Shown one piece after another: positions 2,594 through 4,521 of a DNA stretch of 36,448 bases. The DNA comes from Candidatus Omnitrophota bacterium (GTDB lineage Bacteria; Omnitrophota; Gorgyraeia; Duberdicusellales; 4484-171): NCBI GenBank assembly GCA_023135905.1, contig JAGLSE010000070.1:1-36448 (forward strand). Direction: 5' to 3'. A program made the translations under genes and the position numbers. Each line of letters begins with the position of its first letter. Within the stretch, counting starts at the first letter, position 1. A model generated the notes under the pieces. The model worked only from the letters and a program-made list of their open reading frames with translations. It did no database searches and was not told the DNA's origin.

Positions 2594-2666
2594 GCATAAC
2601 AAATCGCTTCACACTGACTTTTTCCCGCCACTTCGCTTTGTGAAAAAGCAGTTGATTTTAGTGTTA
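2594..2666 (+). repeat. attC site of cassette 2, interrupted at its right core by a group II intron
   Basis: R'' core GCATAAC at 2594-2600 complements the start of its own cassette (GTTATGC at 2175). ACTG-A-CTTTTTC (2613-2624) pairs with GAAAAAG-CAGT (2642-2652) over 11 bp with one unpaired A at 2617, like the extrahelical bases that orient attC recombination. AAATC (2601) and GATTT (2654) can pair further out. The right core begins GTTA at 2663-2666 and is then cut by the intron. Confidence 0.8.
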
Positions 2667-3364
2667 GTGCGCCAAGTGCAGCTTGGTGCTTCTTATAAGG
2701 TGACCTGCTATAGAGCAGGGAGTCCATATCGAGTAAGGCTTAGCCAGCCGCTTGTACCGAGTGTTGCGGGTATGTAGGATAGCGAATAGTACTTTGTGTT
2801 TACAGATGATGCAAATACGCGAACGAAGTACCCGAAGCGTACACAGGGAATACTGTAGGCCGCAAGGGAAACGTGCTTCCCTAAAGCAATACAGCTTCGT
2901 TAAGAAAATCAAAGCAGATGGCGACGGCGTTAACGTACCGGAAGCCAAAACAGAGGAATCGTTAAGGCGAGATTCCCGAGGGTCTGCCGGAGTCCAAGAG
3001 CGTGGCATGCAGTAAGAGAAGTATTGAGAACTTGGGAGACCCTGTTATCTCCTCTGAGAAGGTAGGAGGACTCAACGAAAAGAAGATAATCCGAAGGGTA
3101 TCAGGGAGTCTTATCATTTCATAGTACTCAGAGACGGTAACGCCGGTCACATGGGGAAGGGAATGACGGTATTTCGCAACCCGAAAAGGAAACATGTACG
3201 GATAAGAAAGGCCGAGTAATACATGCAAACCTCACTGCGGGAAATAGCAAATAAAGCTAGCTAAATTTAGCACGAAGCGAGAAATATCGGGGAACCTTGC
3301 GCGGGAAAATCGCACACAGGGTTCTGAAAGGGGACGGCCAAGCAATTGGCCGTTCTACCTTACA
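2667..3364 (+). mobile_element. ORF-deleted group II intron inserted at an attC junction
   Basis: The 5' end GTGCGCC matches the group II consensus GUGYG. A block near 3120-3175 (GTACTC, then AGACGGTAACGCCGGT and ACATGGGGAAGG) resembles the conserved intron segment just before the reverse transcriptase gene in other bacterial group II introns. Domain V is at 3292-3324: an 8-bp lower stem GAACCTTG/CAGGGTTC, an unpaired region and a short GC upper stem with a GAAA-type loop. Domain VI is at about 3331-3359, with stem ACGGCC/GGCCGT and candidate branch-point A at 3357, seven or eight bases from the 3' end. The right boundary is 3363 or 3364; base A is repeated at both ends, so 2666-3363 is equally possible. 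No full reverse transcriptase is present. Confidence 0.8.
3223..3264 (+). pseudogene. N-terminal stub of the intron-encoded reverse transcriptase/maturase
   Basis: ATG at 3223 opens a 13-codon frame, MQTSLREIANKAS, ending in TAA at 3262. This resembles the first residues of many group II intron reverse transcriptases, and it lies where the intron protein would start, after the conserved pre-ORF block and before domain V. The rest of the protein is missing, which implies an internal deletion inside domain IV. Too short to prove by itself; position and sequence together support it. Confidence 0.6.
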
Positions 3365-3375
3365 GAAATAAATAA

Positions 3376-3732
3376 ATGAAAAAAATAAGCAAAATTATTT
3401 TGATTGTTTCGCTTTTTCTGTCATTTGGGATATTAGTTTTAGTAGTCGCATCAATGACTCAGATCGGGAATTCATATGGGGGAAAATATGCAATAGGGAG
3501 AGATACATATAAAAAATTTGGGGATGGACATATTCAGATAATATGGGCTAACTCTAACTCAAAATATCTTTGGGATTGTGAAAATAAAAAGACACTTTTA
3601 AATCCCGTTCATTTATGGGTAAAAAAGAAAAACATAGTATTTTTTGAAGGATTATGGGATAAGAAACCGCTTATTGTAAAATACGCATTAGATGACAATA
3701 AAATATATTTATATGAAAGAATAAAGTTCTAA
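3376..3732 (+). CDS. Cassette 3 membrane-anchored protein of unknown function (118 aa)
   Basis: ATG at 3376 lies 12 bases after the intron's 3' end. The first ~30 residues (MKKISKIILIVSLFLSFGIL and on) form one hydrophobic N-terminal segment, either an uncleaved anchor or a signal peptide. The remaining ~85 residues are Lys/Trp-rich, with strand-like stretches such as HIQIIWANSNSKYLWDCE and KKNIVFFEGLWDKKPLIV, and no family I recognise. The stop TAA (3730-3732) is inside the attC core TTCTAAC. With the intron present, the transcript leader of this gene is the intron itself, so expression may depend on splicing or on a start after domain VI. Confidence 0.65.
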   Translation: MKKISKIILIVSLFLSFGILVLVVASMTQIGNSYGGKYAIGRDTYKKFGDGHIQIIWANSNSKYLWDCENKKTLLNPVHLWVKKKNIVFFEGLWDKKPLIVKYALDDNKIYLYERIKF

Positions 3733-3781
3733 CGAAGCAATGCACCTGATCTTCCTACGCGTCTTCGCCGCTCCGTTAGGC
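3727..3781 (+). repeat. attC site of cassette 3 (55 bp), end of array
   Basis: R'' core TTCTAAC at 3727-3733 and R' core GTTAGGC at 3775-3781 match the canonical RYYYAAC/GTTRRRY pattern closely. CTAACGAAGC (3729-3738) pairs with GCTCCGTTAG (3770-3779) at 9 of 10 positions. This is the short attC class and marks the right end of the array. Confidence 0.8.
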
Positions 3782-3921: not shown

Positions 3922-4521
3922 ATGAATAATCGAATTAATAAGTTGCAACAGGAAATATTAAATTGTAAAAAATGCGGGCTCTCTCGAGAAAGGCTTAATC
4001 CTGTAATAGGGGAGGGTAACTTAAATGCTGAGATAATGTTTATTGGTGAAGCTCCCGGAGCTAATGAAGATAAAACAGGTAAACCTTTTTGCGGCCGATC
4101 AGGGGACATTTTAGATGAGCTTTTAATGAGTTCAGGGATGAATAGACAGGATATTTATATTGCTAATACAGTAAAATGCCGTCCTCCAAAGAATAGAAAT
4201 CCTAAGGAAGAAGAAATAAGGTTGTGTGCTGTTTTTTTAGATCTTCAGATTAACTTAATTAAGCCGAAAATAATTTGTTGTTTGGGGAATTTTTCAACAT
4301 CTTATGTGATGAAAAAGTATAATTTAAACGATAAAATTCAAGGGATTAGTAATATACATGGCCAAGTTTTTTTTGCGGAATCGTCTTATGGCAAAATAAA
4401 AGTTATTCCTTTTTATCATCCGGCAGTTGTTGTTTATAATATGAATAAGAAAAAAGTATTGGAAAAAGACTTTTGTATGCTAAAAAAATATATCTCAATA
4501 AGTGGAGGCAAAAAATGTTAG
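3922..4521 (+). CDS. Type 4 uracil-DNA glycosylase
   Basis: Removes uracil from DNA as the first step of base-excision repair. The 199-residue length and motifs fit the iron-sulfur family 4 enzymes: GEAPGANEDKTGKPFCGRSG at 42-61 (active-site and uracil-binding region), C15 and C18 (CKKC), C86 (KCRPP) and C102 as [4Fe-4S] ligands, and a C-terminal HP pair at 166-167 in the DNA-intercalating segment. The ATG at 3922 follows an AGG-type ribosome site. The 140 bases before it, from the end of the cassette array, contain no recognisable element. Its 3' end overlaps the next gene by seven bases, suggesting co-translation. Confidence 0.93.
   Translation: MNNRINKLQQEILNCKKCGLSRERLNPVIGEGNLNAEIMFIGEAPGANEDKTGKPFCGRSGDILDELLMSSGMNRQDIYIANTVKCRPPKNRNPKEEEIRLCAVFLDLQINLIKPKIICCLGNFSTSYVMKKYNLNDKIQGISNIHGQVFFAESSYGKIKVIPFYHPAVVVYNMNKKKVLEKDFCMLKKYISISGGKKC

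Follow-up and report, generated by a model that had tools for sequence, protein, structure and literature searches.

Targeting of integron attC sites has been assigned in a review to class C group II introns, and the same review describes introns without an ORF as uncommon in bacteria (PMC4424553). Like the introns described here, group IIC-attC introns (e.g. S.ma.I2) insert into attC (PMC4424553, PMC7923331). They do so in the bottom strand, in the R'' box at TTGT/T and in the orientation opposite to the cassettes, with stem-loop recognition, an EBS1 pairing of 3-4 bp and a CGC triad (PMC7923331). One group IIC intron that is not of the IIC-attC type was found in the top strand in Enterobacter cloacae (cited in PMC7923331). 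Non-IIC introns in integron or CALIN arrays are represented by UHB.I2 (IIB1/CL1) and H.ha.F1/F2 (class E) (Sonbol and Siam 2021, PMC7923331). They were described as individual cases, either with an ORF or truncated at the 5' end; their exons are poorly conserved, and neither homing to the R' core through EBS1 nor ORF-less forms were reported for them. UHB.I2 lies just after an attC and, like the intron analyzed here, in the cassettes' orientation, but has different boundaries (UUGCG..GU). Among ORF-less introns, the TeI3 introns of Thermosynechococcus elongatus have their ORF deleted within domain IV, with the ORF ends kept, and were demonstrated by experiment to be mobilised in trans by the protein of an ORF-bearing relative (PMC2882425); they are confined to one genome and have other targets, with no integron involved. 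C.te.I1 of Clostridium tetani is also ORF-less, without related maturase in its genome (cited in PMC4424553), but it occupies an unrelated site, is alternatively spliced and falls outside any attC-homing lineage.

Cassette array and intron boundaries

The window, i.e. the whole stretch of 36,448 nt that was analyzed, is an entire contig of an Omnitrophota genome (1.66 Mb, 92.5% complete). Three integron cassettes are flanked by an unrelated ORF upstream (2-1327) and by the next chromosomal ORF beyond (3922-4521); the cassettes and the intron features are all on the forward strand. Cassette 1 (1678-2175) carries an ORF without Pfam match (1699-2097), and its TTAGGTG start complements its own R'' CACCTAA. 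Cassette 2 (2176-2663) carries a lipoprotein-like ORF (2200-2592), and its TTATGCA start complements the R'' TGCATAAC of its own attC (attC2, from 2593). The remainder of cassette 3 found 3' of the intron (3365-3775) contains an ORF (3376-3732) and the R'' TTCTAAC (3727-3733), and is followed by the R' GTTAGGC of attC3 (3775-3781). The array is considered real because cassettes 1 and 2 show the same complementarity between start and R''. No integron integrase reaching the family cut-off was found anywhere in the genome, and the array is therefore a CALIN. The first cassette core (GTTAGGT, within 1660-1677) has no obvious upstream palindrome or nearby integrase, and is possibly an orphan attI or an ectopic cassette insertion site.

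An ORF-less group II intron of 698 nt (2667-3364, GTGCG...CTACCTTACA) interrupts the second attC of this integrase-less array within its R' core, dividing the start of cassette 3 (TTA-GAA, against R'' TTCTAAC). The initial annotation placed it at the attC core after GTTA, with ends at 2666/2667 and 3363/3364. The position and the 5' boundary are confirmed, GTGCG at 2667 matching the GUGYG of group II introns, but the 3' boundary had to be moved one base further, to 3364/3365. Indeed, only the removal of 2667-3364 restores GTTAGAA, the exact complement of the R'' of cassette 3, so that this earlier observation is true only with the new end. The terminal segment then counts 10 nt as in relatives (CTACCTCGAT / CTACCTTACA); its last base, A, is paired with U3111 of J2/3, which keeps the gamma-gamma' interaction as U-A; elsewhere in the lineage a J2/3 A goes with a terminal U, and a G with a terminal C (L119). 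With an end at 3363 (AC), neither the R' core nor the length shared with relatives would be preserved. The intron terminates in CA at 3364 instead of AY, which is offset by the gamma U3111; the 3' AY of group II introns is a common consensus and not an absolute requirement. The earlier view that the insertion is later than the cassette is supported.

Structure and class of the intron

Group II membership is indicated by domains I to VI, including D5 and the bulged A of D6. The domain I region (2719-3002) matches RF02005 with 125.2 bits (E 2.4e-35, whole window searched). Domain V (3292-3324, triad AAC at 3293-3295) and domain VI (3328-3361, bulged branch-site A3357) are covered by a match to RF00029 (domains V-VI) at 3290-3363, with 38.6 bits (E 9.7e-06). 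The covariance-model check proposed earlier for 3292-3360 thus yields a match, but one just under the curated cut-off of 40. The retention of both domains is nevertheless upheld by helix covariation: 14 of the 27 D5-D6 pairs show a compensatory change among 15 relatives, and none of 500 shuffles was as high. The folded 698-nt RNA beats 20 of 20 dinucleotide shuffles (z -3.0). D5 contains one mismatch (C3300-A3316), and in D6 an A-U replaces a G-C, i.e. a compensated change. In J2/3 (3111-3112), U3111 is the gamma base and U3112 covaries with the triad base A3294. In the lineage, the second base of J2/3 covaries with the middle base of the D5 triad (G/AGC in ten members, U/AAC in eight), with no exception where both bases are readable. 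The members with an AAC triad and a J2/3 U are L049, L051, L060, L106, L127, L162, L184 and the window intron (3293-3295). According to the tree this switch arose at least twice, once in the branch of the window intron. Since the gamma-gamma' and J2/3-triad changes are matched, the window intron seems to have been selected as a ribozyme after diverging, rather than drifting.

The intron was initially regarded as a possible deletion derivative of a group IIC-attC intron. Such an origin is in line with the site, which is an attC, and with the presence of a IIC intron elsewhere in the genome. It is contradicted by strand, box, EBS1 length, triad and maturase type (PMC7923331): the window intron lies in the attC top strand, in R' (GTTR/, here GTTA/) and in the cassettes' orientation, its EBS1-IBS1 pairing spans 6 bp as in IIB introns, and its triad is AAC (AGC or AAC in relatives). 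Maturase type was judged on a relative, the window intron having no maturase: this protein scores 107-126 bits with IIC proteins, against 131 with LtrA and 127 with TeI4h. Judged against maturases of solved structure, the relatives' maturases are not IIC-like, and the protein scored here stands about equally near LtrA and TeI4h. We therefore hold the IIC-attC derivation to be barely credible and describe the intron as IIB-like. A scan of alignment columns for EBS3 revealed no clear EBS3 column in the lineage.

Distribution of the lineage and target recognition

A set of 84,980 genomes, one per species, was scanned with the first 22-24 bases of the intron, the flank being left unconstrained. 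The scan returned 99 stretches, which were reduced to 93 distinct insertions after removing chance matches and duplicates (10 of the 103 pattern matches were due to chance, without intron continuation). GTTA (43 cases) or GTTG (12 cases) precedes 55 of the 93 sites, compared to about 0.8% expected by composition. An upstream hairpin is apparent at these GTTR sites (z -1.8 vs -0.2 in control stretches, P 7e-07). Many of the upstream stretches are visibly attC, and all recognized attC cases are in the top strand, in R'; a clear attC hairpin is missing at some GTTR sites. Among about 16 GTTR sites, 4 (window, L049, L051 and L107) have an exact R'' in the next cassette, where 0.1-0.2 is expected for each. 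Hosts include Desulfobacterota, Fermentibacteria/Aegiribacteria, Omnitrophota, Lentisphaerae, Spirochaetes, Firmicutes, Planctomycetota and others. The window intron is only 64-77% identical to its relatives, so that an argument made at the level of the lineage may not carry over to this copy. A DNA search of plasmid and E. coli collections gave no match, and viral contigs gave pattern matches by chance only. RF02005 matches in other Omnitrophota correspond to other introns at unrelated sites.

Several members have a complex organization. Consecutive intron 5' ends are found in a single array in L064 (JACQWU010000094.1; 3865, 4426 and 6035) and in L051 (3394 and 3571); some of them are only 60-90 nt long. 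We read them as introns that inserted into one another or one after the other, with truncation, at neighbouring attC. In L088 (129-4514) and L185 (2679-5913) the maturase gene is separated from domain V by an unrelated insertion that adds kilobases of sequence. The genome of L133 (G459, contigs C20, C33, C44, C63, C66, C69, C70, C98 and C109) contains twelve pieces of the intron, many of them located where a contig ends, which suggests an intron of high copy number collapsed in the assembly.

In the window, the last six bases of the 5' exon (IBS1, GTGTTA, 2661-2666) overlap the R' core of attC2 and form six of six pairs, two of them G-U, with EBS1 (UAACGU, 2931-2936). Most attC members have UAACGU in the domain I loop before GGAAGC, and in non-attC members the same loop is the complement of their own 5' exon. 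The pairing between EBS1 and 5' exon is above all 2000 permutations, a few misplaced EBS1 strings (GGCCGC, L168) having been kept in, which lowers the observed mean. Retargeted members changed both sides (ATTTTG/CAAAAT, GGTCTT/AAGACC, CTTTTG/CAAAAG, CGATTC/GAATTG and TTGTTA/TAACAA). As the loop complements the 5' exon of each member, EBS1 sets the target and attC is its commonest setting. The recognition thus predicted is of the homing type, unlike the stem-loop recognition of class C. In a branch of the lineage from Planctomycetota NORP49 (L078, L080, L115, L116, L123, L135, L139 and L146), every copy comes after ..ATG, where a repeated coding motif (W-Y-x-N) ends; this branch appears to home to a gene-family repeat instead of attC.

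Loss of the ORF and supply of maturase

In the window intron, alignment with ORF-bearing and ORF-less relatives delimits a shortened domain IV (3221-3286), in which a relic of the ORF start (ATG at 3223, MQTSLREIANKAS at 3223-3261) is closed by a short hairpin and the body of the ORF is gone. The initial annotation was right that no reverse transcriptase sequence is left in the intron beyond this relic. Its description as a deletion derivative also holds: close relatives encode at the corresponding position a maturase starting with MQTSLRGIAK or similar. These ORF-bearing members measure 1.85-2.1 kb and their maturase-reverse transcriptase 420-437 aa, with a reverse transcriptase domain and a weak maturase domain match, below cut-off. 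In ORF-less members (0.70-0.83 kb) the ORF ends after about 12 codons and resumes just 5' of D5, with the closed hairpin kept. Nine complete ORF-less elements from seven genomes all keep AACCTCACTGCGGGGAATAGCA, and in several of them the start codon or the frame is lost yet the surrounding 22 nt are conserved. Domain IVa serves for protein binding in other group II introns. By analogy, the retained segment is likely conserved for binding of the intron-encoded protein (IEP). In the tree, ORF-less members do not group together but are interspersed with ORF-bearing ones, and ORF loss therefore recurred; some nodes of this tree are weak, and the 3' parts of the truncated L110 and L136 are not homologous in the alignment.

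Both forms coexist in Desulfonema magnum. Three ORF-less copies occupy different sites with a common domain IV deletion signature (pairwise identity 92%, 83% and 82%), an ORF-bearing copy with intact ORF lies about 5 kb from one of them, and L049 is an intermediate with decayed ORF. This coexistence and the shared deletion are the strongest sign of mobility in trans, which they suggest at the sequence level; the movement is not recent, since the two closest ORF-less copies differ by 8%. G452 likewise holds both forms, and L063 and L082, from different genomes, have in common an inserted GCAA and the same deletion. The maturase ORF of close relatives and the two forms in D. magnum agree with the earlier proposal that the window intron probably needs a maturase from elsewhere.

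A related IEP in the same genome, as for TeI3, is thus found in D. magnum and G452, but no cognate maturase was detected in this 92.5%-complete genome. The search for a full-length copy in the genome, as advocated initially, found none. A IIC maturase on contig C4 (392 bits with GsI-IIC) is the sole reverse transcriptase that was detected in the genome. It belongs to another group II intron, of class IIC and with a different ribozyme (G000:C4, 36.8-38.5 kb; L004 2895-4490), and is split by an in-frame TAG (L004 3293-3295). Lacking a cognate maturase, the window intron is probably stranded, and this copy would at best be spliced, not mobile. An intron 5' end located on an attC, together with a cognate maturase that is damaged, occurs in G268 (JAHITE010000026.1), an Omnitrophota genome of the same class; G187 contains two intron 3' ends and a maturase relic.

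Origin of the window intron

The window intron is probably a non-autonomous element from a IIB-like lineage that homes to attC, and would depend on a maturase acting in trans. Its position, its boundaries, its lineage, the EBS1/exon covariation and the coexistence of the two forms in relatives are shown by the sequences. The homing site of the lineage would be the R' core of integron attC sites, where EBS1 UAACGU of the intron RNA would pair with ACGTTA or GTGTTA, the bases with which the attC top strand ends. The maturase-reverse transcriptase of an ORF-bearing relative would bind the retained start of domain IV, and the lariat would reverse-splice between GTTA and GAA and then be copied into DNA. 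At the DNA level, the inserted copy disrupts the R' box, which should prevent cassette 3 from being excised; being oriented like the cassettes, the intron could be removed by splicing from the cassette transcript. Action in trans, splicing and blocked recombination are what we infer from these sequences.

Alternatively, the intron may have been ORF-bearing on arrival and lost the maturase gene at this site, never having moved as an ORF-less element, and would then be a splicing-only or decaying remnant. The single copy in a genome where no cognate maturase was detected, the repeated losses that the scattered ORF-less members imply and the decayed ORF of L049 all fit such a history. The other ORF-less copies, however, have one deletion in common at several sites, L063 and L082 share theirs together with GCAA in different genomes, and the retained segment is conserved without coding; we consider loss in place unlikely. 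Much less probable still is catalytically dead debris whose outline was preserved by chance: a D5 score just under the Rfam cut-off, the C3300-A3316 mismatch, the terminal CA and the missing maturase could be read in this way, but the oddities of the intron are matched by changes in their partners (gamma U with terminal A, J2/3 U with triad A, A-U for G-C in D6).

Significance

Extended to the whole lineage, the preferred reading of trans-dependent homing would describe a widespread system dedicated to integrons. Autonomous IIB-like introns and ORF-less ones arising repeatedly would home by RNA pairing to the top-strand R' of attC and spread with cassettes across several phyla, freezing cassette junctions in the DNA while splicing leaves cassette expression intact, with a rewired catalytic triplex (AAC triad/J2/3 U); we rate this broader proposal about as likely as not. 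In the open literature searched, non-class-C introns at attC are found only as isolated cases (PMC7923331). The lineage appears to be undescribed in these papers, and its novelty is provisional.

The lineage would represent a second, mechanistically different route to attC, by base pairing with the top strand. It offers maturase donors naturally paired with ORF-less recipients, and may serve as a ready model for the interaction between introns and integrons, because EBS1 UAACGU provides a natural guide to a recombination core that is widely shared. The matched changes in gamma-gamma' and in the J2/3-triad contact may be viewed as natural experiments on the active site of group II introns, and of the spliceosome.
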